Shown one piece after another: positions 254 to 24,374 of a stretch of DNA of 64,000 nt. Every line of letters begins with the position of its first letter. Position 1 is the first letter of the stretch. The position numbers and the translations under genes were made by a program. The stretch is from assembly GCA_902776645.1 (NCBI GenBank), contig CACYQT010000032.1:1-64000 (forward strand), in the 5' to 3' direction. The stretch comes from an uncultured bacterium (GTDB taxonomy: Bacteria > Verrucomicrobiota > Lentisphaeria > Oligosphaerales > Oligosphaeraceae). The notes beneath the pieces were generated by a model, which did not search any database, was not told the DNA's origin, and worked only from the letters and a program-made list of their open reading frames with translations.

Positions 254-1369
254 CTACGGGCGGCTGTTGGTTCTCGGTACAACTCCGATAATTTTAAGCA
301 GTGCGTTCTCCAGCGAGACGCGCGGCGCGGTGGACGATGAGATGCACTGCCAAAGGGCGTCACGAAGCGTGCGGATCGCTTCGATGATCTCCTGCGGCGC
401 ATAGCGGACGGCTTGCTCCGCAAGCATTTGCACACGATACGGATGCATCGTGACAAATTCCGTGCCGTCCGCCACCCATTGCTGTTTCTGGTCGTCGCTC
501 GCGCCTTCCAATGTCCGTTTCAGGGAGACTGGATTGGAGATCTTGTTGACGGCCATGAAGAGGCGGATCTGCAGGGCCTGGCGGAAATACGTGGCGGCGT
601 TGAGAATCAGCGAACGGGCCGCGCGGTCTTCATCCTTGCTCTGCTCCGTAATGACGTCGATGACGCGGAGGCATTCCTGCAAGTTGCGTTGTCCGAGCAC
701 GTTGCCCATGGCCCAGTTGAACTCCTCGCCCTGCCCTACGCAGACTTTCTGGACTTCCTCCAACGTCGGCGGCGTGGTGTCCGCCCCCTTGTAGCAGATG
801 ATTTTCTCCAGCTCGGAATCGATCCGCGCGGTATCCGTGCCAAGCACGTCGATGAGATATTCGACGACGCCGCGGTCCAGCTGGAGCCCCTTCTCCTTGG
901 CGGCCTGCTGGATGCACGCCGTCATTTCCGCCTGCCAGTTGCGGTTCATCTTGTCAGGCTTCGTGAGAAGCATGACTTCGCCATGGGCCATGCAGGCCTT
1001 GTAGAGGGCCTTCCGCTTGTCGATTCCAGGCCCGTCCATGATGAGAATGATGTCCTCCGGAACGCCTTTGGCGATGGTTTCCGCAAGCTCCTTGAGGGCC
1101 TTGCCGATTGGCCCCGTCTTCGAGCCTTCCGCGTCGAAACCGGAGAAATGCTTCAGCCAGACGGTCTTCTTTCCGCCGAGAAACGACGGCGATTTGATGG
1201 ATTTCAGCAAGTTGATGACGAGAGACGGATCCGCCCCCGCATCTCCTTCCTGGAAAACATCATACGAAAACGGATCGGGATTGTCGCCGGCGTATTGGCG
1301 GACGATTTTGTCCGCCTGCGCCGTGATCTGCGATTCGTCGTTTCCGGATATGAGAAAAAGATTGGCCAT
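254..1369 (-). CDS. holA: DNA polymerase III subunit delta
   Basis: A 371-residue protein with the HolA family layout: an N-terminal AAA+-like fold (FLISGNDESQI at residues 4-14, then FLGGKKTVWLKHFSGF and an acidic EDIILIMDGPGIDKR strand), a middle domain (VEYLIDVLGTDTARIDSELEKI) and a C-terminal helical collar domain. The delta subunit opens the beta sliding clamp within the clamp-loader complex. As expected for delta, no functional Walker A motif is seen. The length fits the family (about 330-370). The start lies 2 bp after the stop of the upstream DAHP synthase gene on the same strand, so the two are probably co-transcribed. Confidence 0.9.
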   Translation of the reverse strand: MANLFLISGNDESQITAQADKIVRQYAGDNPDPFSYDVFQEGDAGADPSLVINLLKSIKSPSFLGGKKTVWLKHFSGFDAEGSKTGPIGKALKELAETIAKGVPEDIILIMDGPGIDKRKALYKACMAHGEVMLLTKPDKMNRNWQAEMTACIQQAAKEKGLQLDRGVVEYLIDVLGTDTARIDSELEKIICYKGADTTPPTLEEVQKVCVGQGEEFNWAMGNVLGQRNLQECLRVIDVITEQSKDEDRAARSLILNAATYFRQALQIRLFMAVNKISNPVSLKRTLEGASDDQKQQWVADGTEFVTMHPYRVQMLAEQAVRYAPQEIIEAIRTLRDALWQCISSSTAPRVSLENALLKIIGVVPRTNSRP

Positions 1370-1371
1370 GT

Positions 1372-2442
1372 CTATTGCTGTTGTGCGATGGATTCAAGAT
1401 GGATGCGGTTGAAGACATCCGTGACGAAATCTTCCCCGAGGCCGAGCTGTTTGCCGCGCTCAATGGCCGTCGCGAGGACTTTCTCCCAGCGGGACGTCTG
1501 CAGGACGGTGATGCTGTTGTCTCGCTTCAAGTCGCCTATTTCACGAGAGATGCGCATGCGGTGGGCAAGCGTCGTCAGGAGGGTGACGTCCAATTGGTCG
1601 ATGGCGAGCCGCAGTTCGTCCAATTTCAATTGGCCTTCCGGATTTTCGGACGTCCGGTCGCGCAGCACAAGCTTCTGCATGAGCATGCGAAGCTGTTCGG
1701 GCGTGAGCTGCTGCTTGCTGTCCGAAAGAGCGGTCGGCGGATTGATGTGGGTTTCGATCATAAGCCCTTGGAAATCAAGATTGAGAGCCTGCTGGGCGAT
1801 TTCCTGCACCAACGCGGCGTCGCCTGCGATATGGGACGGATCGCAAAGGCATGGCAGGCTCGGCAGACGGCGCTTCAGCTCGATCGCGAGATTCCATGCG
1901 GGCGCGTTGCGGTATTTGCCCGACGCGATGCCGCTGCAGCCGCGCAGGATGGCGGCGACGCGTTTCACGCCCGCTTGGGCGATCCGCTCGATGGCGCCGA
2001 TCCACAGCTCCAGATCCGGATTGACGGGATTCTTCACGAACACAGGGATGTCCACGCCGTGGATGGCGTCCGCGATCTCCTGCACGGCGAACGGCGTGAC
2101 GGTCGTCCTCGCGCCGATCCATATTGCATCAACTCCATGGGCCAGAGCAAGTTTGACATGCTTCGCGTTGGCGACCTCCACGGCGAACGGGATGCCCGTC
2201 TCCGCCTTCGCGCGGTTCAGCCAGTCGAACGCCTTTTCGCCTGCGCCTTCGAAGGTGCCAGGCCGCGTGCGCGGTTTCCACACGCCCGCCCGCAGGAAGG
2301 CGATCTGTTCCTTTGGCAAGGCGCGAGCCGTCGCCAGAACCTGCTCTTCCGTTTCGGCGGAGCATGGTCCGGCCAGCAGCATGCGCTGTCGGGACGACAG
2401 TTGGACGCCCCATTGGGTGATGTTCATGAAGTCGTATGGCAT
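1372..2442 (-). CDS. Bifunctional 3-deoxy-7-phosphoheptulonate synthase / chorismate mutase
   Basis: A 356-residue protein. Residues 1 to about 260 form a type I-beta (KDO8P synthase-like) DAHP synthase: LLAGPCSAE near residue 22, FLRAGVWKPRTRPGTFEG, FAVEVAN, IWIGARTTV, FVKNPV and LCDPSHIAGD are recognisable active-site segments. Residues from about 270 to the end form a chorismate mutase type II (AroQ) helical domain (KLDELRLAIDQLD, RMRISREIGDLKRDN). The enzyme makes the first committed shikimate intermediate and probably also converts chorismate to prephenate; the CM domain may also act as a feedback sensor. This domain order is the one common in Bacteroidetes and PVC bacteria. It is the first gene of a minus-strand pair with holA. 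Confidence 0.9.
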   Translation of the reverse strand: MPYDFMNITQWGVQLSSRQRMLLAGPCSAETEEQVLATARALPKEQIAFLRAGVWKPRTRPGTFEGAGEKAFDWLNRAKAETGIPFAVEVANAKHVKLALAHGVDAIWIGARTTVTPFAVQEIADAIHGVDIPVFVKNPVNPDLELWIGAIERIAQAGVKRVAAILRGCSGIASGKYRNAPAWNLAIELKRRLPSLPCLCDPSHIAGDAALVQEIAQQALNLDFQGLMIETHINPPTALSDSKQQLTPEQLRMLMQKLVLRDRTSENPEGQLKLDELRLAIDQLDVTLLTTLAHRMRISREIGDLKRDNSITVLQTSRWEKVLATAIERGKQLGLGEDFVTDVFNRIHLESIAQQQ

Positions 2443-2537
2443 GTTTTGCCTCGGGCTGGAAAGATTTATTTGGAGATTATAATATATTACTATAATTTAA
2501 ATAGAAAACCAAACAGCCACAATTAAGGAAAGAATCG
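2443..2537. promoter_or_regulatory. AT-rich divergent intergenic region with promoter-like hexamers
   Basis: This 95-bp gap separates the DAHP synthase gene (minus) from the RlmD gene (plus) and must hold both promoters. TATAAT hexamers occur at 2478-2483 and 2491-2496 on the plus strand, with a weak TTTGGA 16 bp before the second one. AAGGAAAG just before 2538 serves as ribosome binding site. No convincing -35 box is visible on either strand. Confidence 0.35.
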
Positions 2538-3764
2538 ATGGAATATGCGCGTGTCATCATAACGGATATCGCCTACGGCGGCGACGGCGTGGGGCGTCTG
2601 GCGGACGGATCGGTCGTGTTCGTGCCGTTCACGGCCGTCGGCGACGACGTGGAGATAGAAATCACGGAACGGAAGGCCGCCTTCTGCCGCGGCGTCGTGC
2701 GGAAGTTCGTGGCGGCCGGCCAAGGCCGTGCCACGCCATGTTGCCGCTATTATGGCCGTTGCGGCGGATGTTCCTATCAGCACTTGACTTACGAGACGGA
2801 AGTCGCCTGCAAGGCGAAGCAGTTCAAGACGCTGATGGCCCGCGTCGGCAAATTCGAATCGTTCCCCGAACTGGAATCCGTCAATCCGTCGCCGCAGGAC
2901 TACGGCTACCGCAACAAGCTCCGTCTGGAGCCCGGCGAACGGACGCTGGAGGCCACTGGCTACTACGTGCCCTACGGCTATTTCGAACGCGACAACACGA
3001 CGTTCATGATGGTTAAAAGCTGCCCATTGGCGCAGGACGCCCTCAACAAGATGCTGCCGAAGGCCATCCGCAGCGACTGGGGCAAGCAGAACGCCAAACG
3101 CAAGGAGCCTTATCCGTTGACGTTGCGCATCACGACGGATGGCGACTGCTGTTTCTATTTCGGGCAGGCCTCGCCGAAGCTCTCATGGCTGAAGGAGAAG
3201 CTGCTCGGCGTGACCTACCGTGTGCCCGTCGGCGGCTTCTGGCAGGTGAATCCCCCTGTGGCGGAACGACTTCTGCAAACGGTGAAGGCATGGTGCGAAG
3301 CGCTTCCCGCGAAAGGCACTCTTCTGGACATCTACGGCGGCGCGGGAACGTTCACGATGCAGCTCGGCCCGATGTTCGACCATCGGTCGCTCGTCGAAAG
3401 CGACGTTCCCGCCGTCAACGCTGCTGATTTCGCCCTGCAGGAGGCGGGTCTTGTCACGGAATTGTGGAAAGGCCCCGCGGAGGAATTTCTGTCGGCGGCG
3501 GATGGCCCGTTGGCCAACATCGATCTGGACCAGACGGTCGCCGTCATCGATCCGCCGCGCATGGGCTGTCTGCCGAAAGCCATTTCCGCCCTGCGCGACC
3601 GTCCGCCGAAATATCTGATCTACGTCTCCTGCAATCCCGCCACCCTCGCCCGCGATTTGAAACTGCTCTGCGCAGACGGCCTCTACACGCCCGAAAAATG
3701 CGCCCTCTTCGACATGTTCCCCCGAACAGCGCATTTTGAATCGGTGGTTCTTCTTACTCAATAG
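2538..3764 (+). CDS. rlmD: 23S rRNA (uracil-5-)-methyltransferase, RlmD/TrmA family
   Basis: A 408-residue protein with an N-terminal TRAM beta-barrel (residues 1-55), an iron-sulfur cysteine cluster (C68/69, C75, C78, with another Cys in VKSCPLAQ) and a C-terminal Rossmann methyltransferase domain. Seen motifs: LLDIYGGAGTF (SAM binding), VIDPPRMG, the catalytic SCNPATLARD (Cys365) and PRTAHFE (Glu401, general base). The family makes 5-methyluridine in 23S rRNA or tRNA; which site is modified cannot be told from sequence, and RlmD/RumA type is preferred because of the Fe-S cysteines. It is the last ordinary-composition gene before the AT-rich insert. Confidence 0.88.
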   Translation: MEYARVIITDIAYGGDGVGRLADGSVVFVPFTAVGDDVEIEITERKAAFCRGVVRKFVAAGQGRATPCCRYYGRCGGCSYQHLTYETEVACKAKQFKTLMARVGKFESFPELESVNPSPQDYGYRNKLRLEPGERTLEATGYYVPYGYFERDNTTFMMVKSCPLAQDALNKMLPKAIRSDWGKQNAKRKEPYPLTLRITTDGDCCFYFGQASPKLSWLKEKLLGVTYRVPVGGFWQVNPPVAERLLQTVKAWCEALPAKGTLLDIYGGAGTFTMQLGPMFDHRSLVESDVPAVNAADFALQEAGLVTELWKGPAEEFLSAADGPLANIDLDQTVAVIDPPRMGCLPKAISALRDRPPKYLIYVSCNPATLARDLKLLCADGLYTPEKCALFDMFPRTAHFESVVLLTQ

Positions 3765-3804
3765 TTGTATTTTTTTAATTTTTTTTAATGAAAGGAGAAA
3801 TGAC

Positions 3805-5229
3805 ATGAATATAGATAATATTTATTTGTTACATTCTTTGAATAAAACTCAATACTATCAATTTATTCAAACCTGTTTAGGGATAACTGTATTTCTGAAT
3901 AATAATAATCTGCTTAATAAAGATTTTCAACATAATAATGAATCTCAGAGTTTTAATGAATTTTGGAATTTTAATGAATTTCTTAATTATAATAAGAATG
4001 TTGAGGTTTTAGCAGGTATAGATTCAGAAGAAGAAAAGCAATATTCAGAGGAACAACGTTTTAGAGAAAGGAACCTTAGTAAAAAATATGTTAGAAGAAC
4101 ATATCTTAAAATTCTGGCATATTTCAAAATAAATAAAAGTGTAGTAAAAACATTTTTAATTAATGAAAGAGATTATGAAGAAATGACATTTAGAGATAAT
4201 AATAATAATATATATAATATTCTAGTTACTTTTAATTTTCTTGGTGATAGCCTTCTGTTTATATTATTAATAGGAATATGTGGTTTTTCTATGATATATT
4301 TTCAATACATAATAAATAATATCGAGAGAATAATAAGAGAAATCACAATTTATAATACCTTGAATTTTAGGCCAGATCCTGGTTGCCTATCAAATTATGA
4401 TTTCATATTAGGTGCTGGGGTTAATGTTAATTTTAAAATAGGTAATTGGAAATCATTAATACAAAAAATAGAAAAAGCAATTAGAACAGAAACTGGATTA
4501 CAATACTTTGAATTACAAAAATTTAAAGGAATGCTTTCAAATACAAACTATATATCTCCTCAAATATTGAAAGATTATAACGAAAAACATTATTTGGACA
4601 TAATATATAGTACTTTATATAATAGAAACCACCAATCCTTTATGAAAAAAATCTCAAATCCCTCTCGTTTTGGTATAAAACTAGAAAAATTTAATCTTTT
4701 TCAGGTCGCGCGTATTGCATCTTTACAGGAACGAACAACTAAAGTATTGACATTTAATTATGACAATGTTTTAGAGCAACTTATTAATAACTCATTTTCT
4801 GGGATAAATTTCAATAGTGTTTTTAAAAATAGTAAAACACCTTTAAACACACCAGATATTGAGATAATTCATTCACATGGATACATGCCTATGAGTTCAC
4901 CACCTCACAAGAGTTATTCGATTATTTTTTCTAGTTTTGAATATATGGAAGCATATAAGACACCGAATATATTTGCAAGAAAAAAGCTTATTGAACAATT
5001 AAGAAACACAAATCTAATTATTGGAAATAGCCTTTCCGACTATGAAGAACAGAAGGTGTTTTATGCCAACCATAGAAAATTCTTAAGCCATTTTGATTAT
5101 ATTTTTGTTTGTAGAAATAAGAAGCTGTGGATGGATATATATCAAGCAATATATTTTTATCAAATGGGAGTAATTCCTATCTTTTTTGATGATTTTAATC
5201 GTATGAATGATTATCTACAACAAATATAA
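3805..5229 (+). CDS. SIR2-like domain protein with an internal membrane segment
   Basis: A 474-residue protein. The start at 3805 is chosen for the AAAGGAG at 3791-3797. Residues 1-140 are Asn-rich and unrecognised; residues about 146-170 (LGDSLLFILLIGICGFSMIY) form one hydrophobic, probably transmembrane, helix. Residues about 199-430 match SIR2-like NAD-binding folds: ILGAGVNVNFKIGNW (201-215), TFNYDNVLEQ (315-324, with the Asn expected for NADase chemistry), HSHGY (356-360) and LIIGNSLSDYEE (404-415). SIR2-like domains of this kind deplete NAD+ in several anti-phage systems (Thoeris ThsA, DSR, prokaryotic Argonaute partners); a role here is inference. The gene is far richer in A+T than its neighbours, pointing to transfer. 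It converges with the HEPN gene and lies beside a type I RM operon. Confidence 0.72.
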   Translation: MNIDNIYLLHSLNKTQYYQFIQTCLGITVFLNNNNLLNKDFQHNNESQSFNEFWNFNEFLNYNKNVEVLAGIDSEEEKQYSEEQRFRERNLSKKYVRRTYLKILAYFKINKSVVKTFLINERDYEEMTFRDNNNNIYNILVTFNFLGDSLLFILLIGICGFSMIYFQYIINNIERIIREITIYNTLNFRPDPGCLSNYDFILGAGVNVNFKIGNWKSLIQKIEKAIRTETGLQYFELQKFKGMLSNTNYISPQILKDYNEKHYLDIIYSTLYNRNHQSFMKKISNPSRFGIKLEKFNLFQVARIASLQERTTKVLTFNYDNVLEQLINNSFSGINFNSVFKNSKTPLNTPDIEIIHSHGYMPMSSPPHKSYSIIFSSFEYMEAYKTPNIFARKKLIEQLRNTNLIIGNSLSDYEEQKVFYANHRKFLSHFDYIFVCRNKKLWMDIYQAIYFYQMGVIPIFFDDFNRMNDYLQQI

Positions 5230-5345
5230 ACTCATATATTAATACTATATCTTATTGAATTAGGATTTATATTATGGTATCTCAATTGTAAACTGATTTT
5301 TCCAATATAGATATTTTAATACTTAATAATCAATTATATGTTTTT

Positions 5346-6836
5346 TCATCTACTTAATTGCTTACAATATTTATACCATTCATCTTTTATTTTATTTGTA
5401 GTTGGTCTTACTGAATTTTTAAAATTATTGTATATTTGAGGGAAATACTCATATATTTGTGCAACAACTTGTTTAAAAATCTCAAAACTATCATCATCAA
5501 TTTTATATGGCATTTCCTTTTCTGTAGTATTTTGCCAATCAACACGTTTCAGATATTTAACAAAATGATTATTGTGATTATGGACAAAATTACTCCTAGC
5601 ATCATACATATTTATTATTGCTTTCTTTATAACTTTTTTTCTAGGGAATCTTTTAGTATATAATTTGCTTATTACGTTAGCTAAAGGATGCTTTTTTGAA
5701 CCCATTCCTGAAAACCCCAAAAATAATCTTTCAAGAGCAGAAAACATTAAAACTAAACGAATAAAAAAATAATCTGGTATCTGATAATTTGAATCATCAT
5801 CCCAACAAAATGATTTTAGGCTCTCTTTATATATATTCATTATAACATCATCATTTTTATAAGGAAATATGAATGATTTAAAAAAATCTAAATGCTTATA
5901 CATTTTATTTGCATTTATTATATATGGGAAGAATAATGTATTTGTTCTTAATGCTTTTGTATTATAATCCATTGAATTAAAAACCAAATAATGTTTTACT
6001 TGATTATTTTCCATATATATTTCTATATCATCGCAATCAAAATTTTCAACTAAAGCAATAACTTTCAGATAACATTTTATGTAATTACCAATTTCTTTCG
6101 AATAATATTCAAATGTATCAAAAACGGTAGTATCTTGAATTATAAGTAATGGATATAACAGAAATCCCTTCGAATATTTAAGAATATTTGAAATAGCTTC
6201 ATCAAACTTTTCATTTTCTTCTTTTGATAAATGACAAAATCTTCGGACTTGGGAAACTAGTTGTTTTTGCGATATATCACTATAATAACTCATTGATGAG
6301 AAAAACTTTTTATTCGGATTATTTGACTTCCACCTTGTATTTATTATATGAATATTATCACTTAAATGAATACTTTTATTAATTCTCAATTTGGGTAAAG
6401 GAAGTACACAAAAACAACGTTTTGTTTCATTTTCAATAAGAATTAAAAAACTATCAATTAAACTTTTTATTGTAATATCTGTGGGAATTATAAAATCAGA
6501 TTTAACAATATTATTTTCATACCAATCTAAAAATATTTCCCAAGAAAAGACTTTATTATCTAACAATGCTAATTCAGATAATTGGTCTATTAAAATCATA
6601 TATTCCTGAGGCGGTTTGTCATTAGTATGATTTATATCACGAATATAATTATCAACATATTCTACTATTTTAGTATTATTTGATTTTAAAAATGGTTTAA
6701 TATATTTTTCAATTTTAGCAATAAATTTTTGATCATTATTTTCTGCCAATTGATATTGTGTTCTTCTTTTATAGAAAATGATTTTTATGGTTTTTAAAAG
6801 TTTATCTTTTTGATCTTGAATACCATTGTTTACCAT
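5346..6836 (-). CDS. HEPN-motif protein, predicted RNase-type defence component
   Basis: A 496-residue AT-rich protein. Most of the length (1-360) is unrecognised. The C-terminal part looks like an Apea-type HEPN domain: FSALERLFLG at about 365-374, followed by a helical stretch and MYDARSNFVHN, which gives an R414-x4-H419 motif as in HEPN ribonucleases. HEPN proteins of this kind are effectors of abortive infection and toxin-antitoxin systems; the target is unknown here. TAGGAAAAATGTT precedes the ATG and a TATAAT (6851-6856, minus strand) lies upstream. The gene converges with the SIR2-like gene, 116 bp apart, so they are neighbours but not an operon. Base composition matches that gene, suggesting arrival together. 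Confidence 0.6.
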   Translation of the reverse strand: MVNNGIQDQKDKLLKTIKIIFYKRRTQYQLAENNDQKFIAKIEKYIKPFLKSNNTKIVEYVDNYIRDINHTNDKPPQEYMILIDQLSELALLDNKVFSWEIFLDWYENNIVKSDFIIPTDITIKSLIDSFLILIENETKRCFCVLPLPKLRINKSIHLSDNIHIINTRWKSNNPNKKFFSSMSYYSDISQKQLVSQVRRFCHLSKEENEKFDEAISNILKYSKGFLLYPLLIIQDTTVFDTFEYYSKEIGNYIKCYLKVIALVENFDCDDIEIYMENNQVKHYLVFNSMDYNTKALRTNTLFFPYIINANKMYKHLDFFKSFIFPYKNDDVIMNIYKESLKSFCWDDDSNYQIPDYFFIRLVLMFSALERLFLGFSGMGSKKHPLANVISKLYTKRFPRKKVIKKAIINMYDARSNFVHNHNNHFVKYLKRVDWQNTTEKEMPYKIDDDSFEIFKQVVAQIYEYFPQIYNNFKNSVRPTTNKIKDEWYKYCKQLSR

Positions 6837-7258
6837 AACATTTTTCCTACATTATATTAAAATTTATTTCTTTTCTGTAAATTAATCCATTTTTTTTATA
6901 TTTCAAATATTTTCTTAGCATTACTTTTAGAGCAAATTTACACAGGATCAGTGCCATAAAATACACATAAAACTAAATATCTACAAACTTTCTCCTACAA
7001 TCAATTGCCGTCTTCCATATTTTTCTATCCCTATATCAATACACGATAATAGTGAAACAAACACATCACCCACTCTCAAAAATGAATTTCCAAATAAATA
7101 ATCCATCTTAACAATCATCTCCAAAGAAGTGCCACTATAACTTGTCATATAATAATACGACAAATTTTTATAAATATTATTTTTAATTAGTTATAACAAT
7201 TATTATATTATATTAATTTTGTATATGATAATATATTTAATACTCAAACAAGTCATAA
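6837..7258. other. AT-rich intergenic stretch, no convincing gene
   Basis: About 420 bp between the HEPN gene and the hsd promoter region. The composition is like the SIR2/HEPN insert. A 60-codon frame at 6981-7163 on the minus strand (ends ..IGIEKYGRRQLIVGESL) has protein-like character but no good ribosome binding site and no recognised family; it could be a remnant of a decayed gene. No terminator hairpin with a T-run was found. Confidence 0.4.
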
Positions 7259-7347
7259 GAAGTCATAGAAAGTCATAAGGATTCCTATAAAATCCTTGAA
7301 AATCCTATTCCTTAAGATATAATAGAGTTATGACTTTCTATGACTTC
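7259..7347 (+). promoter_or_regulatory. hsd promoter flanked by perfect 20-bp inverted repeats
   Basis: TTGAAA (7296-7301), a 16-bp spacer and TATAAT (7318-7323) form a good sigma-70-type promoter for hsdM. It lies between two perfect 20-bp inverted arms: GAAGTCATAGAAAGTCATAA at 7259-7278 and its reverse complement at 7328-7347. AGTCATA is itself repeated three times from 7251. The arrangement fits either a pair of operator sites for a repressor or a small invertible promoter segment; no recombinase or regulator gene is adjacent. Confidence 0.7.
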
Positions 7348-7371
7348 ACCGATACTATTTGACAGACCATA

Positions 7372-8949
7372 ATGGCTAGAGACAAAACAAATCAAAAAGA
7401 ACAGAAGCCGATTGAGCAGACACTGTGGGATGCGGCCAACAAACTGCGCGGCAAAGTCGAATCGGCGGAATACAAGCATGTCGTACTGTCGTTGATCTTC
7501 CTGAAATACGCGAACGACCAGTTCGATGAACACAGGAAGCAGATGACTTCAAATGGGCAGCAGATGTTTCTGGAGATGATGCCCTTCTACACGAAGGACA
7601 ACGTGTTCTACATTCCAGAGTGCGCACGATGGGATTTCATCATGAAGAACGCGAAGCAGCCCGACATCGCCATCAAAATCGATACCGCGTTGCATGAGAT
7701 TGAGATGAAAAATCCGTCTCTGGAAGGCGCTCTACCAGACAACTACTACTCCCGTCTGCACATGGATCCAAGCGGATTGTCTTCCCTGCTTGATCTAATC
7801 AACGGACTGGAACTGCAGGTCGGCGGCGACAAAGATATTTTCGGCAAAGTGTACGAATACTGCCTCCGTGAATTCGCGTTGAAAGAAGGAAAAGGAAAAG
7901 GCGAATTCTATACGCCACGCACCGTCGTCGCCCTGCTCTGCGAATTGATCGAGCCCTATTCCGGCATCGTTTACGACGGCGCATGCGGTTCCGGCGGCAT
8001 GTTCGTCCAATCCATGCGCTTCGTCGATGAACACAAAGGAAATCGTCTGAACGTCTCTATCTACGGACAAGAATTGACGGACACGACGCGCCGCCTGGCG
8101 AAGATGAATCTCGCCATCCGCGGCATTTCCGCGAATCTCGGCGCGGAGGCCGCCAATACGTTCTTGAACGACCAGCATAAAGATCTGAAAGCGGACTTCT
8201 CATTGGAAAATCCGCCGTTCAATCAAAAGGATTGGCGTGAAGAAAACCAATTGAACGATGATCCACGTTGGAATGGCTATCCCACGCCACCGACCAGCAA
8301 CGCCAATTACGGCTGGATATTGAACACGCTGTCCAAGCTTGGACAAAACGGTGTTGGTGTAGTGCTGTTGGCGAATGGTGCACTGTCAGCAGGCGGTGAA
8401 GAATACGAAATCCGCAAACGCATGATTGAAAATGATCGCGTTGAAGCAATCGTTATCCTGCCTCGTAACATGTTCTACACTACAGACATTTCTGTGACTG
8501 TATGGATTCTGAATAAAAACAAAAAGTCCCGTAAAGAGAAACATCCTGAAGGCGATGTAACCTTCCGTGACCGTTCCAATGAAGTCCTTTTTATGGATCT
8601 ACGGCAGATGGGGCATCCTTACGAGAAAAAGTACATAGAATTTACAAAAGAAGATAGAGCAATCATTGTTGACCGTTTCAAATCATGGCGTTTGGACGGA
8701 TATCAGACTCCGTATGAGAATATCCCTGAATTCTGCTATGCAGCAAAGAAGGCCGAAATTATTGAAAAGGATTATAGCCTTGTCCCCAGCCGATACATTG
8801 AATTTGTAAATAAAGATGAATCGATAGGTTACGAAGAAAAGATGTCTCAGCTTCAGAGCGAGCTAAAAAACTTGCTCGTTCAGGAACTGCAGTCCAGACA
8901 AGATCTGTTGGAAGTAATGAAAGGGCTGGGATATGAAATCAAATTATAA
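7372..8949 (+). CDS. hsdM: Type I restriction-modification system, DNA methyltransferase subunit
   Basis: A 525-residue N6-adenine methyltransferase. The HsdM N-terminal helical domain (LWDAANKLRGKVESAEYKHV, LIFLKYAND) is followed by GEFYTPRTVV, the SAM-binding motif YDGACGSGGM (about 200-209) and the catalytic NPPF (280-283, in SLENPPFNQ). HsdM2-HsdS methylates the recognition sequence; with HsdR it restricts unmodified DNA. The start ATG follows a poor ribosome binding site. hsdS overlaps its 3' end by 17 bp. GC content returns to the chromosomal level here, unlike the two defence genes upstream. Confidence 0.95.
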   Translation: MARDKTNQKEQKPIEQTLWDAANKLRGKVESAEYKHVVLSLIFLKYANDQFDEHRKQMTSNGQQMFLEMMPFYTKDNVFYIPECARWDFIMKNAKQPDIAIKIDTALHEIEMKNPSLEGALPDNYYSRLHMDPSGLSSLLDLINGLELQVGGDKDIFGKVYEYCLREFALKEGKGKGEFYTPRTVVALLCELIEPYSGIVYDGACGSGGMFVQSMRFVDEHKGNRLNVSIYGQELTDTTRRLAKMNLAIRGISANLGAEAANTFLNDQHKDLKADFSLENPPFNQKDWREENQLNDDPRWNGYPTPPTSNANYGWILNTLSKLGQNGVGVVLLANGALSAGGEEYEIRKRMIENDRVEAIVILPRNMFYTTDISVTVWILNKNKKSRKEKHPEGDVTFRDRSNEVLFMDLRQMGHPYEKKYIEFTKEDRAIIVDRFKSWRLDGYQTPYENIPEFCYAAKKAEIIEKDYSLVPSRYIEFVNKDESIGYEEKMSQLQSELKNLLVQELQSRQDLLEVMKGLGYEIKL

Positions 8950-10126
8950 GAAGCTTGGCAATTATATCCGACAAATTGATGAAAGAAACAATGACGGCAC
9001 CCTTGGAGAGGATAATCTCTATGGTATCTCCGTCACAAAGGAATTCATCATATCCCACGCAAATTTGGTTGGAGTAACTTTTGATGGATATAAAGTTGTT
9101 GCCCCAAAGCAATTTGCCTATATTCCTGACACATCTCGTCGTGGAGACAAAATTGCAATATCTTTGAATACATTCGGAGAAAAAATTATTGTCAGTAGTA
9201 TCTGCTCAGTGTTCGAGATTATAGACGAAAATGAACTACTTCCCGAGTATTTGATGTTATGGTTCATGCGACCAGAATTCGACCGTTATGCACGTTTCAT
9301 GTCCAATGGTAGTGTACGCGAAGTATTCGATTGGGACTGTATGTGCAGCGTAGAACTTCCCGTTCCATCACTCCAAGAACAGCATAAGATCATCCAAGAT
9401 TTTCATGTCATTACCGATCGGTTAGAGATATTACATAAGATGAATGTAAATCTTACAACTCAGTGTTGCGTAAATTATCAACTAATGCTTAACGGTTTCA
9501 CAGAAGAAAGTGATAAAAAAACTCTTCCCGAAGGTTGGTCTATTGGAAGTATTGGTTCATACTCTGATTTGAAATCTGGATATGCTTTTAAGAGTGAGTG
9601 GTGGACGAACAAAGGATATAAAGTAATAAAGATTGCAAATATTACCAATAACTCTATTGATTTAGACTCTTGTGATTACGTAATAGAAGAACATGCGAAA
9701 CTGGCCAAAATATTCATAAGTGTTCCAGGTGACGTTTTCATCGCAATGACAGGTGCTACAACAGGGAAAATTGGTATCCTTCCATTCTGTAAAGATAAAG
9801 TTGTTGTAAATCAACGTGTTGGAAAATTCTTTCTGGGGAAAGAACCGATTTTGAAGGTACCGTTTTTATTTGCGACATTACTTTCATCGCGTGTCGTTCA
9901 ACAGCTTCAGCCTGATGGGATGGCTGGAAGTGCACAAGATAATCTTAGCGCTGATGATATAAAAAATGTGGAAATCGTACTGCCCGACACTACAACGATT
10001 GAAAAATTCAATGTTCAAAACCGAAGCATTATTGAGAATATTATGGCCAATTTAGCAGAATTGCGATTGATGCAAAAATTGTTAGTTTTACTACTTTCGA
10101 AAATGACCACAAAAGAAGGAGCATGA
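8933..10126 (+). CDS. hsdS: Type I restriction-modification system, specificity subunit
   Basis: A 397-residue HsdS with two target-recognition domains. TRD1 covers roughly residues 1-150, followed by a coiled-coil spacer (LQEQHKIIQDFHVITDRLEIL); TRD2 starts near LPEGWSIGSIGSYSDLKSGYAFKSEWW (about 197-225) and ends with a second helical spacer (FNVQNRSIIENIMANLAELR). The TRDs decide the bipartite DNA target, which cannot be predicted by eye. The gene is more AT-rich than hsdM and hsdR, as is usual for the fast-exchanging specificity gene. It overlaps hsdM by 17 bp and ends 5 bp before hsdR. No second or inverted hsdS fragment is visible in the window. Confidence 0.92.
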   Translation: MKSNYKKLGNYIRQIDERNNDGTLGEDNLYGISVTKEFIISHANLVGVTFDGYKVVAPKQFAYIPDTSRRGDKIAISLNTFGEKIIVSSICSVFEIIDENELLPEYLMLWFMRPEFDRYARFMSNGSVREVFDWDCMCSVELPVPSLQEQHKIIQDFHVITDRLEILHKMNVNLTTQCCVNYQLMLNGFTEESDKKTLPEGWSIGSIGSYSDLKSGYAFKSEWWTNKGYKVIKIANITNNSIDLDSCDYVIEEHAKLAKIFISVPGDVFIAMTGATTGKIGILPFCKDKVVVNQRVGKFFLGKEPILKVPFLFATLLSSRVVQQLQPDGMAGSAQDNLSADDIKNVEIVLPDTTTIEKFNVQNRSIIENIMANLAELRLMQKLLVLLLSKMTTKEGA

Positions 10127-10131
10127 TATAA

Positions 10132-13100
10132 ATGCCCGCAATCTTTTCTGAAACCGTTCTTGAGCAAGCCGTTATCGATAAATTCGTAACGGAAGGCTAT
10201 GAACACGTCTCTGGCGATAATCTTCATCGGGAGCTGACGGATGTTCTCATTGAAGACGATCTGTCTGCGTTTCTTGCGGCAAAATATGCGTCAGAAGGCA
10301 TCACGGCTTCAGAAATTGATTCCATCATCCGCTCCCTACGGTATGCCTCCGCAACGCCGATATACAGCGCCAACAAGAACATGTTCCTGAAAATGGTCGA
10401 AGGCGAGACATTCGTCCGCGAAGACCGTAGCGCCAAGGACTTCCATCTGCGACTGATCGATTTTGACAAAACAGACAACAAGAATATCGTCAAAATCGTC
10501 AACCAGATGACCATCAAAGGACCGAAAACAACCCGTCGGCCGGACGCTATAGTGTATGTCAACGGCCTGCCGGTGGTCGTGATGGAATTCAAATCCGCCA
10601 TCAAGGAAGACACGACGATTCATGACGCATATGTGCAGATCACGACACGATACATGCGGGACATTCCGGAATTGTTCAAATACAACTGCTTCGCCGTGCT
10701 GTCTGACGGCGTGAACACGAAGGCCGGAAGCATCTTCACAGACTACGAATATTTCTTCTCCTGGCGACGCATAGAGGAGACGGACCGCCCGTCTGACGGC
10801 ATCGACACGCTGGATACGATGGTCAAAGGCATGTTCCGAAAGGAACGGCTGTATGACATCATCCACAATTTCATCTACTTTCCGGATACGGACAACAGCA
10901 AGAAGATGAAAATCGTCGCCAGTTATCCGCAGTATTTCGCCGCACGAAAACTGCTGGCGAACGTCCTCACGCATCAAAAGCCGCTTGGCGACGGCAAAGG
11001 CGGCACCTATTTCGGCACGACCGGCTGCGGAAAATCCTTCATCATGTTGTTTTTGACACGGCTGATCATGCATGAACAGAACCTCCATTCGCCGACGGTG
11101 CTGTTGATCACCGACCGATCCGATCTGGACGACCAGCTGTCCCGCCTGTTCCTGAACGCCAAACGGTTCATCGGCGACAAAACGGTCGTGGAGATGGACA
11201 GCCGTGTCCAGTTGCAGGACGTTCTGGCGAAGACGGCCAGCGGTGGCGTCTATCTGACGACCATCCAGAAGTTTGCAGACGAATTCGGCGAACTCAGTTC
11301 ACGGCAGAATATCATCTGCATCTCCGATGAAGCGCATCGGACGAGCAACAATCTGGACATGAAACTGGTCGTAAAATCCGACGAAGTGTTGAAGCGTTAC
11401 GGCTTTGCGACCTTCCTCCATACGGCGCTGCCGCAGGCGACCTATATCGGTTTCACGGGAACGCCCGTGGACGCCACCATGGACGTGTTCGGCCCTGTCA
11501 TCGACCAATATACCATGACGGATTCCGTGAAGGACGGCATCACCGTCCGCCTCGTGTATGACGGCAGGCCTGCACGGGCTGTTCTCGACAGCGGCAAAGT
11601 GCAGGAAATAGAGGAATACTACAAGCAATGCCTCTCCGCCGGAAGCAATGAATATCAAGTGGAAGCCAGCAAGAAAGCCGTTACGAAGATGGCGGCGATC
11701 GTGGGAGACGACGACGTGCTCAATTCCGTCGCTGATTATTTCATCGACCATTATGAGACACGCGTCAAGGAAGGCTCCACTGTTGCGGGTAAATGCATGT
11801 TCGTCTGCATGAACCGCCCGATTGCGTTCAAATTCTACAACATCCTCAAAGCCAAACGGCCGGAATGGTTTGAGCTGAAAGTCGCACCGGATGGCGTGGA
11901 GCTTTCAGAACAGGATAAAAAAGAACTGATTCCGATGCCGATGTGCCAATTCGTGGCGACGCGTTCGAATGACGATCCGCAGGACATGTACGATCTGCTC
12001 GGTCCGGATGCCGTTCGCAAGACGGCGGCGATCCAGTTCAAAAACATCCACAGCAATTTCAAGATCGCCATCGTCGTTGACCTATGGCTGACAGGCTTCG
12101 ACGTACCGTTTCTGGATACGATCTACATCGACAAGCCGATTACGCAGAGCCATACCATCATTCAGACGGTTTCCCGCGTGAATCGGTCATTTGCGGGAAA
12201 AGACAGCGGCCTGATCGTCGATTTCATCGGCATCAAGATTGGCCTGCTGGCGGCGTTGCATACATACACGGATTTCAAACCGGAGACGTTTGATGAAAAC
12301 AGCACGCAGGCGGCGATCCGCGTTGTCCGCAACCAGCTGGAAATACTGGATGCCATGATGCATGGTTTCGACAACAAGAAATATTTCACAGGCACGCCAG
12401 TTGAAAAACTGCAATGCCTGAACGAAGCGGCTGAATTCATCCAGGAGACGAAGGATCTTGAACAGCGTTTCATGTCCAATGTGCTCCGCATGTCCAAGGC
12501 GTTCAATCTCTGCAACAGCGGAAAGGATTTCAGTCATTACGAGTTGGATCTTATCCACTATTACAAAGCCGTGCGGTCCATTTTGTTCAAACTGACGAAA
12601 GGCGACGCTCCAGACACGGATACCATGAACGCCCACGTTCAGAAGATGCTGCAGGACGCCATCAAATCCGAAGGCGTGGAGGAAGTTTTCTCGACGAAAG
12701 CGGAAGTGAACGCCGAAGCCGTGGATCTTTTCAGCGATGAATATCTTGTCCGCATCAGCCGTATCAAACTGCCGAACACGAAGGTGAAGATTTTGGCGCA
12801 GTTGCTGAAGAAGAAGGTCAACGAATTCAAGCGGGTCAACAAAATCAAAGCAAAGACGTTCGAAGAACGGTTGCAACATGTTCTGGACGACTACAACAAC
12901 CGCATGAAGGATGCCGATTATGTGAAGAGCATTCTTGACGACGTTTCCGCCCAGTTGATGGATCTGATGAAAAAGCTGAAAGAAGAACAGGAATCCTTCA
13001 ACGAGATGGGTATCGATTACGAAGAAAAGGCGTTTTTCGACATTCTTGTGGCGGTCGCGGAAAAGTTCCAGTTTGAATTTCCTGAAAGTGAAAATATCGA

Positions 13101-13308
13101 ATTGGCGAAGGAGATTCGTGCCGCGCTGCGGGATAAGGAGAAATATGCCGATTGGGCCAATAGCACTCAGATCAAAGCACTTATGCAGGCCGATATCATT
13201 CTGATTCTGGCGAAACACGGCTATCCACCCACGCCGCCGGAAATCTACGAAAAGGTCTATAACGACATCTTGGAGCAAACGGAAAACTTCAAGAAATACA
13301 ATGATTGA
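10132..13308 (+). CDS. hsdR: Type I restriction endonuclease subunit R
   Basis: A 1058-residue motor and nuclease subunit. The PD-(D/E)xK nuclease centre is D138..E152-x-K154 (RPDAIVYVNGLPVVVMEFKSA). SF2 helicase motifs follow: GTTGCGKS (295-302, Walker A), ITDRSDLDDQL, ISDEAHRTS (398-406, DEAH box), FTGTPVD, and motif VI in TVSRVNRSF. The C-terminal third is helical and binds the methylase core. All catalytic motifs appear intact, so the system is probably active. Third gene of the hsdMSR operon. Confidence 0.95.
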   Translation: MPAIFSETVLEQAVIDKFVTEGYEHVSGDNLHRELTDVLIEDDLSAFLAAKYASEGITASEIDSIIRSLRYASATPIYSANKNMFLKMVEGETFVREDRSAKDFHLRLIDFDKTDNKNIVKIVNQMTIKGPKTTRRPDAIVYVNGLPVVVMEFKSAIKEDTTIHDAYVQITTRYMRDIPELFKYNCFAVLSDGVNTKAGSIFTDYEYFFSWRRIEETDRPSDGIDTLDTMVKGMFRKERLYDIIHNFIYFPDTDNSKKMKIVASYPQYFAARKLLANVLTHQKPLGDGKGGTYFGTTGCGKSFIMLFLTRLIMHEQNLHSPTVLLITDRSDLDDQLSRLFLNAKRFIGDKTVVEMDSRVQLQDVLAKTASGGVYLTTIQKFADEFGELSSRQNIICISDEAHRTSNNLDMKLVVKSDEVLKRYGFATFLHTALPQATYIGFTGTPVDATMDVFGPVIDQYTMTDSVKDGITVRLVYDGRPARAVLDSGKVQEIEEYYKQCLSAGSNEYQVEASKKAVTKMAAIVGDDDVLNSVADYFIDHYETRVKEGSTVAGKCMFVCMNRPIAFKFYNILKAKRPEWFELKVAPDGVELSEQDKKELIPMPMCQFVATRSNDDPQDMYDLLGPDAVRKTAAIQFKNIHSNFKIAIVVDLWLTGFDVPFLDTIYIDKPITQSHTIIQTVSRVNRSFAGKDSGLIVDFIGIKIGLLAALHTYTDFKPETFDENSTQAAIRVVRNQLEILDAMMHGFDNKKYFTGTPVEKLQCLNEAAEFIQETKDLEQRFMSNVLRMSKAFNLCNSGKDFSHYELDLIHYYKAVRSILFKLTKGDAPDTDTMNAHVQKMLQDAIKSEGVEEVFSTKAEVNAEAVDLFSDEYLVRISRIKLPNTKVKILAQLLKKKVNEFKRVNKIKAKTFEERLQHVLDDYNNRMKDADYVKSILDDVSAQLMDLMKKLKEEQESFNEMGIDYEEKAFFDILVAVAEKFQFEFPESENIELAKEIRAALRDKEKYADWANSTQIKALMQADIILILAKHGYPPTPPEIYEKVYNDILEQTENFKKYND

Positions 13309-13376
13309 TGGCTTCTCCGAGGTAAAAAAACATGAGCAGGTAAACCATTCGGATTACAATTGAAGGAGGGCAGATC

Positions 13377-13835
13377 ATGGAATATAAGATTGAAAAATGG
13401 GAAGCAATGGACTTGCTGGTGCATGCAAGGGATTTTCACACCGAAACAAGTGAAGCCGAAATTCCGAAGTTCTGGGATGAGTATTATGCAAATGATGCAT
13501 ACAAGAAGATTCCCGCCTATCTGGCTGTATGTGCTCAGAAGAAAACAGACAAGAATGAATTTCGCTATGGGATAGGCTGTAAAGCATCCGATGTGGAAGG
13601 AGTTCCAGAAGGATTCGAAATCTTGCATATTCCAGAATACACATGGGCTGTCTTCATGTGTGTCGGCCCCATGCCGAACGCGATTCAGGATATGTGGGAA
13701 CGAATCAACAAAGAATGGCTTCCAACAGCGGAATATGAAATGATTCCCGATTACGATATCGAGAATTATCTTCCTGGCGACCCCACATCGCAGGACTATG
13801 TAAGCGAGATATGCATTCCCGTCAAAAAGATGTAA
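13377..13835 (+). CDS. GyrI-like small-molecule-binding domain protein
   Basis: A 152-residue stand-alone AraC effector-binding (GyrI/SOUL-type) domain: YKIEKWEAMDLLVHARDF at the start, a WDEYY segment, YGIGCKASDVEGVPEGFEILHIPEYTWAVFMCVGPM in the middle and a C-terminal EICIPVKKM strand. Family members bind hydrophobic small molecules, or act as DNA gyrase inhibitors or antibiotic sensors; the ligand is unknown. AAGGAGGG sits 6-7 bp before the ATG. It begins the run of small accessory genes after hsdR. Confidence 0.8.
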   Translation: MEYKIEKWEAMDLLVHARDFHTETSEAEIPKFWDEYYANDAYKKIPAYLAVCAQKKTDKNEFRYGIGCKASDVEGVPEGFEILHIPEYTWAVFMCVGPMPNAIQDMWERINKEWLPTAEYEMIPDYDIENYLPGDPTSQDYVSEICIPVKKM

Positions 13836-13867
13836 CAGGGACAATTTCAAAACTGCTCAAATGTCTA

Positions 13868-14045
13868 TGTTAAGGAAACCACAGATCACACAGATTACAC
13901 TGATTTTTCACTGATAGCCTTGCCGCCGAGGCTGAAAAAAATGCTTAAGATTCTGAATAAAAAAAGAATATAAAAAAAGCAGGATTCATCGGCCTCCGGC
14001 GCCAAGGCTGGTTCTGAAAATCACAGATTATAACTATGCTAAAGT
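13868..14045 (+). repeat. Interspersed composite repeat, copy 2 (partial)
   Basis: The segment AACCACAGATCACACAGATT..ACTGAT at 13877-13910, followed by a GCCTTGCCGCCGAGGCTGAAAA module, matches repeat copies at 1-110 (inverted) and 15420-15500. The CACGAAAGGCACGAAA module is missing. Degenerate sequence with another AAATCACAGATTATAAC echo continues to about 14035. It fills the gap between two small genes and encodes nothing recognisable. Confidence 0.65.
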
Positions 14046-14115
14046 AAGACTGTTGCAATTTCATCAACAGATAAGAAATTTGCAGGTCACATCTCTAATT
14101 TGAAGGAGTAAGAAA

Positions 14116-14418
14116 ATGAAACTGTCAAAAATATTTGAAGAAAAGCCTAAACAATGGGGATTCAGGGGAGATCCGTATTTTTGGAATCACTTAAAAGGAC
14201 TCGCGGAGAATATGGATATGATTTCTCCGGACGAACTGGAGGATTGGATCAAAAAGGAATATCGTTCTCTCTCAGGCAAGGCGTTGACCAATGAATACGG
14301 CGATTTTGCCGTAATCAAGCAGTTTGCCCATGGAGGAATGAGTTCCGGCGGTGTCGATAACGAATGGTGGATGAATGAAGGAATTCCGCTGCTGAAAAGC
14401 AGGTTGACGAAGCTCTGA
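14116..14418 (+). CDS. Conserved hypothetical protein (about 100 aa)
   Basis: A 100-residue soluble protein. It contains QWGFRGDPYFWNHLK (13-27) and FAHGGMSSGGV (70-80), a combination I know from short uncharacterised proteins in Firmicutes and other gut bacteria. No function is known to me. TTTGAAGGAG lies 10 bp before the ATG, supporting the start. It precedes a GNAT gene on the same strand. Confidence 0.65.
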   Translation: MKLSKIFEEKPKQWGFRGDPYFWNHLKGLAENMDMISPDELEDWIKKEYRSLSGKALTNEYGDFAVIKQFAHGGMSSGGVDNEWWMNEGIPLLKSRLTKL

Positions 14419-14440
14419 CAAATTCAATAACAGATATGGC

Positions 14441-15364
14441 TTGTTTGTCCAAACAATGAGCATGACGACGAAACAGTTTCAGTTATTATCGGATGTCAAT
14501 CTCGTATGGGATTTTCTTGTCGATATCTATGATCGGGAGAATGGCGGCGGAATGGCCGCCCCGTTCTTCGAGCATGCCCTCCAATCGTCATGGATGGATT
14601 TGTCATATACATTTCTCGACAGGCTGTGGCTCGACGGTGACAAAGTCGTGGCGTTCGTCTATTATGAATCGCCTGTGACGGACATATACTTCAATGTCCG
14701 AAAAGGCTATGAGTTCCTTGCGGATGAACTCATTGACTATGCCATGACAACCATGCCGAATTGGGAATACAAACAACAGCTGGTTCTTTTCAACGGACAG
14801 GAATTTCTGAAGGAAGCCGCTTCGAAACGCGGCTTTCAGATGATCAATGAATTTGACGACAGGATTTTTGATTTCAGAAATGAACTCGATTACAAACTGC
14901 CTGACGGATATCATTTTGTGGAACAGGAAGACATTGATATTGATAAGTTAGCGAAGCTATGTTGGGATGGTTTTGACCATGACGGCAGTTTTGATGGATG
15001 GGACAAAGAAGATCAATCATATGAATGGACACCTGCAAAGTCGTACAAAGGCGTGATTGGGCCATGGATGTCGCCGTCGCCGCATGCGACGCCGGAGTTC
15101 AATCTCGTTATCGCAGATGATAAAGAAGACTATGGTTGTTTTTCAGGCATGTGGTGGGTTCCGGAAAATCATTTGGCGTACATGGAACCGCTGTGCACGG
15201 CGCCGAAGCACCGTCGGAAAGGACTTGCGGCGGCGGCTCTTTCCAAGCACTATCATAGGATGAAAGCGTTGGGCGCCACGCATATGACCGGCGGCAGCAA
15301 TCCGTTTTACGAAAAGATTGGTTACGAAAAAGGATACCACTGGACTTTTTGGAAAAAACCGTAG
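14441..15364 (+). CDS. GNAT family N-acetyltransferase, double-domain
   Basis: A 307-residue protein with two GNAT-like halves. The N-terminal half (1-150) lacks a clear acetyl-CoA motif. The C-terminal half has the motif A loop, LCTAPKHRRKGLAAAAL (about 247-263), followed by GGSNPFYEKIGYEKGYHW typical of the GNAT C-terminal strand. Substrate unknown. The start is uncertain: 14441, 14456 or 14462 are in frame and none has a strong ribosome binding site. Confidence 0.8.
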   Translation: MFVQTMSMTTKQFQLLSDVNLVWDFLVDIYDRENGGGMAAPFFEHALQSSWMDLSYTFLDRLWLDGDKVVAFVYYESPVTDIYFNVRKGYEFLADELIDYAMTTMPNWEYKQQLVLFNGQEFLKEAASKRGFQMINEFDDRIFDFRNELDYKLPDGYHFVEQEDIDIDKLAKLCWDGFDHDGSFDGWDKEDQSYEWTPAKSYKGVIGPWMSPSPHATPEFNLVIADDKEDYGCFSGMWWVPENHLAYMEPLCTAPKHRRKGLAAAALSKHYHRMKALGATHMTGGSNPFYEKIGYEKGYHWTFWKKP

Positions 15365-22929: not shown

Positions 22930-22944
22930 ACAAGGAGTATGATC

Positions 22945-23541
22945 ATGAGTAGCATTAATCCAATTATCATGAGGTCGTTGGTCAAGAACAACAACATGAT
23001 CACGACATCCGAGGTTCTTGCACTCGGTTTTTCCAGACAACTTCTTCAGAAATATGTTTTCGCAGGTTTATTAGAACGGATACGTCAAGGAGTCTATATT
23101 CTACCCGATACAATCCATGATGACATGTACACGTTGATGCAACGATCCAAGCATATCATTTTTTCTCATGAGAGCGCACTTTTTCTGAACGGTTTATCTG
23201 ACAGAACGCCGTTTATTCATAGCATTACACTGCCAAGCAACAAGGCCGTTCCAAACTCGATAAAAGATGAATGTGTTTGTTTTTATATTAAATCTGAATT
23301 TCATAAACTTGGTCTAATTGAACTAAATACTAGCTTTGGAAACAAAGTCCGTTGCTATAATCCTGAGAGGACAGTGTGTGATTTTTTACGAACAAGAAAT
23401 CGTTGTGATGAAGAGACTGTAGTTTCTGCTATCAAGAATTACGCAACTTACGACAAAAAAGATTTAAACCGCTTGGCTGATTATGCAGAACAGTTGAAAG
23501 TCAATACTGACTTAAAGAAGTACATGGAGGTGCTACTATGA
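22945..23541 (+). CDS. abiEi: AbiEi-type antitoxin and transcriptional repressor
   Basis: A 198-residue protein. The ATG at 22945 is preferred because AAGGAG at 22931 is then 7-8 bp away; 22939 would be too close. The N-terminal winged-helix region (NNMITTSEVLALGFSRQLLQKYVFAGLLERIRQGVYIL) and the C-terminal antitoxin domain (RCYNPERTVCDFLRTRNRCDEETVVSAIKNY) are both typical of type IV TA antitoxins of the AbiE family. It should bind the inverted repeat upstream and neutralise AbiEii. The stop overlaps the toxin start by ATGA. Confidence 0.88.
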   Translation: MSSINPIIMRSLVKNNNMITTSEVLALGFSRQLLQKYVFAGLLERIRQGVYILPDTIHDDMYTLMQRSKHIIFSHESALFLNGLSDRTPFIHSITLPSNKAVPNSIKDECVCFYIKSEFHKLGLIELNTSFGNKVRCYNPERTVCDFLRTRNRCDEETVVSAIKNYATYDKKDLNRLADYAEQLKVNTDLKKYMEVLL

Positions 23542-24374
23542 GTTCAAAAGCCATGAGCTTGAAGGATAGAATTCGAAATCATGCAAAAAAGAACCATATA
23601 GCAGCACAAGTAGTCCTCCAAAACTTCTTGTTTGAACGATTTCTCGTCAGGCTTTCCAAATCAAAATACAAGGATAAGTTTATTATCAAAGGCGGAATGC
23701 TCATTTCAGCTATCGTTGGTCTAGATACACGCTCAACGATGGATCTTGATACAACTTTAAAAGACTTGCCACTTACAGAAGAAATCATTCGTGCTGCTAT
23801 TGATGCTATCAGTAATGTAACGCTTGATGATGAAGTGGAATTTCACATTGTATCTATTGAATTGATCCGAAAAGATGATCAATACGGTGGTTATCGAGTC
23901 AAGTTAAATGCAGTATATGATACAATAAACACACCACTATCGATTGATGTTTCAACTGGAGACGTTATTACGCCTGGTGCCATTCAATATGAATTCAGCG
24001 GACTCTTTAATGAAAATGAACATATCACATTATTGGGATATAATATTGAAACAGTCTTAGCAGAGAAAGTCGAAACCATTCTCAGTAGAGGGGTTTTCAA
24101 TACCAGACCAAGAGATTATTATGATATCTATATTCTAGCAACGACACAGAATTATAGTCAAGAAATTTTTGATATGGCGCTTTCCGCGACAGCAACCCAT
24201 AGAGGAAGTACTAAAATCATTTCAGATCGGACCGCTATTGTATCGCGTATCGCTGGAAGTGAAGTGCTTCAAGAAATGTGGATGAAGTATCAGAATCGTT
24301 TTTCATATGCAAAGGAAATCCCGTTCACAGTCATTATAGAAGCTTTGAAAAACTTACTCGGACTTTTGTCATGA
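23538..24374 (+). CDS. abiEii: AbiEii-type nucleotidyltransferase toxin
   Basis: A 278-residue protein of the DUF1814/AbiEii family. Key nucleotidyltransferase residues are seen: FIIKGGMLI (48-56, KGG at 51-53) and RSTMDLDTT (65-73, DLD at 69-71), then IDVSTGD and the C-terminal LAEKVETILSRG..RPRDYYDIYIL block. AbiEii toxins transfer nucleotides to tRNA or other targets and give abortive infection; the target here is not known. Translationally coupled to the antitoxin. The pair is more AT-rich than the neighbouring nadE. Confidence 0.88.
   Translation: MSSKAMSLKDRIRNHAKKNHIAAQVVLQNFLFERFLVRLSKSKYKDKFIIKGGMLISAIVGLDTRSTMDLDTTLKDLPLTEEIIRAAIDAISNVTLDDEVEFHIVSIELIRKDDQYGGYRVKLNAVYDTINTPLSIDVSTGDVITPGAIQYEFSGLFNENEHITLLGYNIETVLAEKVETILSRGVFNTRPRDYYDIYILATTQNYSQEIFDMALSATATHRGSTKIISDRTAIVSRIAGSEVLQEMWMKYQNRFSYAKEIPFTVIIEALKNLLGLLS

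Follow-up and report, generated by a model that had tools for sequence, protein, structure and literature searches.

The locus considered here raises the question of whether two adjacent, very AT-rich genes, one encoding a SIR2-domain protein and the other a protein with a HEPN-type motif, form a defence pair. They lie between rlmD and a type I restriction-modification (RM) operon in a contig of an uncultured member of the Oligosphaeraceae, of which a stretch of 64,000 nucleotides (the window) was analysed. A sequence-only reading had proposed that the two genes arrived together as an insert and act in the same or parallel systems.

A variable site downstream of rlmD

The main features of the site are the following:

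3758 to 13337, no strand: variable block, bounded by rlmD and a GyrI-like/Cass2 gene (Cass2 by Pfam); the sister species G004 carries about 2.3 kb of other genes instead
3791 to 3797, forward strand: ribosome-binding-like site AAAGGAG, read from the sequence, 7 nt upstream of the ATG of the SIR2 gene
3805 to 5229, forward strand: SIR2 protein gene, 474 aa, Pfam SIR2_2
5346 to 6836, reverse strand: HEPN-like protein gene, 496 aa, orphan
7372 to 13308, forward strand: type I RM genes hsdM (7372-8949), hsdS (8933-10126) and hsdR (10132-13308)

At the local base composition, open frames of this length would arise by chance with odds of about 1e-19 (SIR2) and 1e-20 (HEPN-like). The two genes are convergent, with an intergenic gap of 116 bp, and have a GC content of 0.252 and 0.234, respectively (GC3 0.18 and 0.15); among their neighbours, the GC content is 0.61 in rlmD, 0.47 in hsdM, 0.37 in hsdS, 0.51 in hsdR and 0.44 in the gene past the hsd operon. 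They are thus real genes of foreign base composition, and the earlier description of two convergent, very-low-GC open frames at 3805-6836 was accurate in coordinates, orientation and GC. A common type of donor for both would follow from a single property, their base composition.

The first 20 kb of the window were compared with the rlmD regions of four genomes of the same genus (G001-G004). With the sister species G004 (L058), the window is collinear at 387-3757 (91%) and again at 13338-15356 (88%), with no match between. This block measures 9,580 bp in the window and contains the SIR2, HEPN-like, hsdM, hsdS and hsdR genes; in G004, it measures about 2.3 kb and contains three different genes: one for GrpB, one for a GNAT acetyltransferase and a frame whose LRR match falls below threshold. 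The start of the same GrpB-GNAT cargo is visible in G002 (L059), whose contig then ends, and the more distant G001 and G003 (67-68%) have a different 496-aa frame after rlmD. An assembly artefact is disfavoured because the flanks are collinear on both sides of the block. Since the block also includes the hsd genes and is replaced as a whole in G004, the locus is best described, from these comparisons, as one variable chromosomal site with defence-type cargo, exchanged between related species, and not as a separate two-gene insert. The AT-rich insert of the sequence-only reading therefore keeps its foreign, low-GC genes, but it is larger than proposed and takes in the type I RM operon. The near-identical GC of the SIR2 and HEPN-like genes would fit a joint arrival of these two; the hsd genes in the same block differ from them in composition. 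If this inference holds, the locus adds a chromosomal site downstream of rlmD with cargo swapped between related species, and the same spot in related genomes can be read for further cargo.

In G004, a diverged second 3' end of rlmD lies inside the cargo (14309-14340 of L058), 1.3 kb past the true one, a hint that the rlmD tail has repeatedly undergone insertion or recombination. A search of the window for a second copy of this tail found none.

The SIR2 protein and its relatives

Within the SIR2 protein, the following features are distinguished:

3805 to 4371, forward strand: N-terminal region, residues 1-189, candidate sensing part, no significant Pfam match (best E 0.027)
4240 to 4296, forward strand: hydrophobic stretch, residues 146-164, without counterpart in four relatives
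4753 to 4767, forward strand: FNYDN, residues 317-321, with the catalytic-type N318; N318, Y319 and D320 invariant in alignment A2
4870 to 4881, forward strand: HSHG, residues 356-359, with the catalytic-type H358; H356, H358 and G359 invariant, H358 aligned with KomC H146
5023 to 5040, forward strand: GNSLSD, residues 407-412; G407 and D412 invariant

Pfam SIR2_2 (PF13289) matches residues 313-426 of 474 (E 8.9e-10, 39.2 bits, cut-off 24.5), and Pfam gave no other match in this protein. The SIR2-like motifs named in the sequence-only reading are all present (GAG at 203, FNYDN at 317, HSHG at 356, GNSLSD at 407), with the domain above cut-off and the catalytic positions intact. Alignment A2, which comprises the window protein and its relatives from L037, L038, L039 and L040 (34, 25, 23 and 24% identical to it, respectively), has 24 invariant columns, including G203, G205, N318, Y319, D320, H356, H358, G359, G407 and D412. 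Among solved structures, the profile built from these five sequences matched KomC (3.6e-10), FAM118B (9.9e-9) and ThsA (5.9e-8). The structure model from the same five sequences had a pLDDT of 41.5.

KomC (PDB 8zsf), the SIR2 NADase of the Kongming system, shares with the window protein a SIR2 domain with NYD and HG motifs; H358 falls on KomC H146, the residue changed to N in PDB entry 9xvc. However, KomC has 264 aa and its SIR2 domain runs from its start, whereas about 190 residues precede the domain in the window protein. The likeness to ThsA of Thoeris consists of the SIR2 domain matched by the profile; ThsA has a SIR2-SLOG layout, as given in the abstract of PMC11204291, whereas the SIR2 domain of the window protein is C-terminal and Pfam found no SLOG match. 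Identity with ThsA was rejected on this difference in layout, and PADLOC's ThsA models gave no match to the window protein either. Identity with Dsr1/Dsr2 was likewise set aside: a very long protein with an N-terminal SIR2 domain would be expected, and the window protein has 474 aa, a C-terminal domain and no PADLOC Dsr match. Matches by phmmer to designed pentatricopeptide proteins were caused by repeats and were dropped. Taken on its motifs and profile matches, the SIR2 protein is a credible NADase candidate and probably a phage-defence protein, and it would be active as an NADase.

The part before the domain is less clearly related to other proteins. The N-terminal region is weakly similar to that of the L037 relative (E 0.0016), but it scores no better than shuffles against a profile made from the N-terminal parts of four relatives; an N-terminal domain common to the window protein and its relatives is likely on the basis of their shared layout. 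A membrane helix had been proposed in this region, and a hydrophobic stretch does exist there: residues 146-164 carry no charges and have a mean Kyte-Doolittle hydropathy of 2.14, which would suit a membrane-anchored NADase. The same mean is reached by 257 of 5000 shuffles of the protein, and no comparable stretch occurs anywhere in the four relatives (maxima 1.11-1.54). A conserved membrane anchor thus finds no support, anchoring of the window protein is improbable, and we would not call it SIR2-TM.

The SIR2_2 domain is common, with matches in 34 of 145 genomes of the phylum, but protein searches with the whole SIR2 protein returned its own copy only, both among 98 relatives' genomes and among 387 phylum genomes. 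In the class of L037, for which 391 genomes were searched with the five-sequence profile, two genomes were matched, one being the seed and the other matching in the SIR2 domain only. A scan of genome contigs yielded five loci (L037-L041), listed here with two further SIR2-domain relatives:

L037, Butyrivibrio sp. AE3009: match over residues 98-474, 34% identical, same layout as the window protein
L038, Erysipelotrichaceae: SIR2 relative of similar layout
L039, Bacillales: SIR2 relative of similar layout
L040, Streptococcus mitis: SIR2 relative of similar layout
L041, Bacteroidales: match over residues 200-384 only, SIR2-domain relative
L003, Cupriavidus plasmid: SIR2-domain relative
L042, viral contig: SIR2-domain relative

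The neighbours of the four similar-layout relatives (23-34% identical to the window protein) differ. In the Butyrivibrio locus (L037, 6935-9173), an FRG-domain gene (PADLOC candidate PDC-S15) ends 10 bp upstream of the SIR2 gene, making a candidate operon of two NAD-related proteins; unlike the window, this locus has no HEPN-like gene and its SIR2 protein no hydrophobic stretch. An AAA_13 gene (PADLOC candidate PDC-S06) lies upstream of the SIR2 gene in L038, and an HTH gene does so in L040. Two Firmicutes-type loci, L038 (2979-6335) and L039 (7569-11486), have, after the SIR2 relative, first a similar-looking frame that Pfam does not match, presumably TcmP-like, and then a radical SAM gene. 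In L041, type I RM genes are nearby, as is an FRG gene. Because the neighbours differ, there is no fixed partner, and SIR2 genes of this branch look like genes that travel in defence neighbourhoods. The defence setting proposed for the two genes is supported: a type I RM operon lies in the same block, and SIR2 relatives have FRG (PDC-S15), AAA (PDC-S06) or type I RM genes as neighbours. In a separate locus, L045 (6766-11166), a SIR2 gene, whose 433-aa product has the domain near its N-terminus, adjoins a 1,032-aa frame without Pfam match.

The HEPN-like protein

Two features of the second protein bear on its assignment:

5580 to 5597, reverse strand: RSNFVH, residues 414-419, Rx4H motif, from the sequence
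5730 to 5732, reverse strand: E369, which lies 45 positions ahead of R414 and is a candidate for the acidic residue, chosen by eye

The HEPN motif is described in an excerpt of PMC3710099 as Rx4-6H with a polar residue after R, usually N, D or H. R414-SNFV-H419 fits this pattern, and the residue after R414 is S, which is polar, yet outside the usual three. An upstream acidic residue, placed in helix 2 and often within Ex3[KR], belongs to the HEPN type as well; E369, picked by eye, fits by position, and Ex3[KR] is not matched. Likeness to the HEPN superfamily, and especially to its ApeA-like members, thus consists of a C-terminal Rx4H after a large N-terminal part and of the upstream glutamate, whereas the ApeA-like profile PF18739 does not match the protein, S follows R and Ex3[KR] is lacking. 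HEPN finds no support from Pfam, PADLOC, NCBIfam or PHROGs profiles (the single NCBIfam match, E 0.038, is sub-threshold), nothing was matched among solved structures, and the structure model of the protein alone (pLDDT 34.4) is too poor for a helical bundle to be read. The C-terminal Rx4H motif of the sequence-only reading is present, but some Rx4H arises in 30% of shuffles of this protein and profiles lend it no support.

Relatives of the HEPN-like protein are not found in 98 relatives' genomes, plasmids, phages or 207 genomes of the class of L041, and 387 phylum genomes gave its own copy and a single short match, weak in score (E 0.003) and spanning residues 10-73. Scans of viral contigs and genome contigs, which with a single protein detect close relatives only, gave none either. 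In viral contigs, a scan for the pattern YDARS-VHG found three proteins with the motif near the C-terminus:

L063, 1 to 918: 306 aa, stop to stop
L064, 4947 to 6356, reverse strand: 470 aa, stop to stop
L065, 6775 to 8277: 501 aa, stop to stop

In these proteins, a glutamate in a hydrophobic stretch precedes the arginine by 43, 43 and 46 residues, respectively, as against 45 in the window protein (glutamates picked by eye), and 72, 66 and 68 residues follow the motif arginine, as against 82. The L063 protein can be aligned with about 60 residues of the HEPN-like protein (E 2.6e-5, in a set of three motif-selected targets), and the comparison with the motif masked is not significant (rank 272 against 5000 shuffles). 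There was no Pfam match in the two of these proteins scanned and no PADLOC match in any of the three.

Pairs of single-sequence profiles had no power as a HEPN test: PF18739 matches both L035 and L062, the latter below cut-off, yet these two missed each other. PF18739 searches of 59 and of 186 genomes yielded too few sequences to improve the profile, and L035 had no match in plasmids.

From RSNFVH and the upstream glutamate, a HEPN domain in the second protein is probable, and HEPN RNase activity is plausible. It is somewhat unlikely that the protein is another AT-rich accessory protein, with RSNFVH there by chance and no active HEPN RNase. Such an origin of the motif would agree with the frequency of Rx4H in shuffles, the lack of a profile match, the S in place of N, D or H (PMC3710099, in excerpt) and the masked comparison with L063, and it is at odds with the glutamate at 43-46 residues and the similar C-terminal distance shared by three viral-contig proteins, themselves picked by motif. 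This orphan, like the three viral-contig proteins that share its motif layout, suggests that proteins of this sort can escape current profile libraries.

Independent genes, a joint system or guards of the RM operon

The most likely reading, which we put at about an even chance, is that the variable site carries a type I restriction system and two abortive-infection candidates, each a single gene, presumably independent of the other and with a putative role in defence. In the SIR2 protein, the N-terminal region would detect infection, after which the C-terminal SIR2 domain would deplete NAD+; the second protein would have a sensing N-terminal part of its own and act as a HEPN-type RNase. The NADase part is supported by SIR2_2 above cut-off, the invariant N318 and H358 and the KomC and ThsA profile matches; the varied neighbours of the SIR2 relatives and the convergent orientation argue for independence, the block is shared with hsdMSR, and the FRG and AAA neighbours matching PADLOC candidates PDC-S15 and PDC-S06 argue for a defence setting. 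Against this, the similar GC of both genes would equally fit a joint origin, and for the second protein there is HEPN without profile support, a weak motif-masked test and no relatives found.

A joint two-component system, in which one protein kills and its partner acts as sensor or restraint, or NADase and RNase act in sequence, would explain why the genes are adjacent, have nearly equal and unusual GC and GC3, and are both missing from this site in the sister species. It is nevertheless unlikely: a HEPN-like relative was found at none of seven loci with SIR2 relatives (L003, L037-L042; unfiltered phmmer, best E 2.9) and in none of the five genomes of L037-L041, the SIR2 relatives have other neighbours, and the genes, being convergent, do not form a co-transcribed operon. 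The co-occurrence counts lean against a pair with limited power, as fairly close copies only are detectable for an orphan protein without detectable relatives in any dataset searched, and the failure to find co-occurrence reflects this status as well. Action in the same system, as proposed in the sequence-only reading, is thus not borne out, and among open-licence PMC papers no SIR2-HEPN pair was found under literal pair names. It is more doubtful still that the SIR2 protein represents an unnamed branch of C-terminal SIR2 NADases whose undescribed N-terminal sensing region works with a partner swapped between genomes (FRG, AAA ATPase, HEPN-like), so that an orphan RNase partner here would make a two-effector attack on NAD+ and RNA.

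PrrC guards a type I restriction system and fires when that system is inhibited. A comparable role of the two genes as guards of the adjacent type I restriction system, set off when it is inhibited, is very improbable: they share the variable block with the hsd operon, and the SIR2-domain relative in L041 is also near type I RM genes, but their base composition differs from that of the hsd genes and no RM genes were seen near L037-L040 (by eye, selected Pfam scans).

The SIR2 and HEPN-like locus is ordinary in kind and rare in sequence. Should the reading as two independent genes hold, it would add a rare branch of defence sirtuins whose enzymatic domain is C-terminal.

Elsewhere in the window, a perfect 20-nt inverted repeat, GAAGTCATAGAAAGTCATAA, lies at 7259-7278 and 7328-7347, 25-113 bp upstream of hsdM, with extra copies of AAGTCATA adjoining it; it may serve the RM operon as an operator or promoter structure. 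At 22939-24371, an AbiE-type pair, with AbiEi antitoxin domains and an AbiEii nucleotidyltransferase toxin (E 2.6e-39), is a further predicted defence or toxin-antitoxin module.
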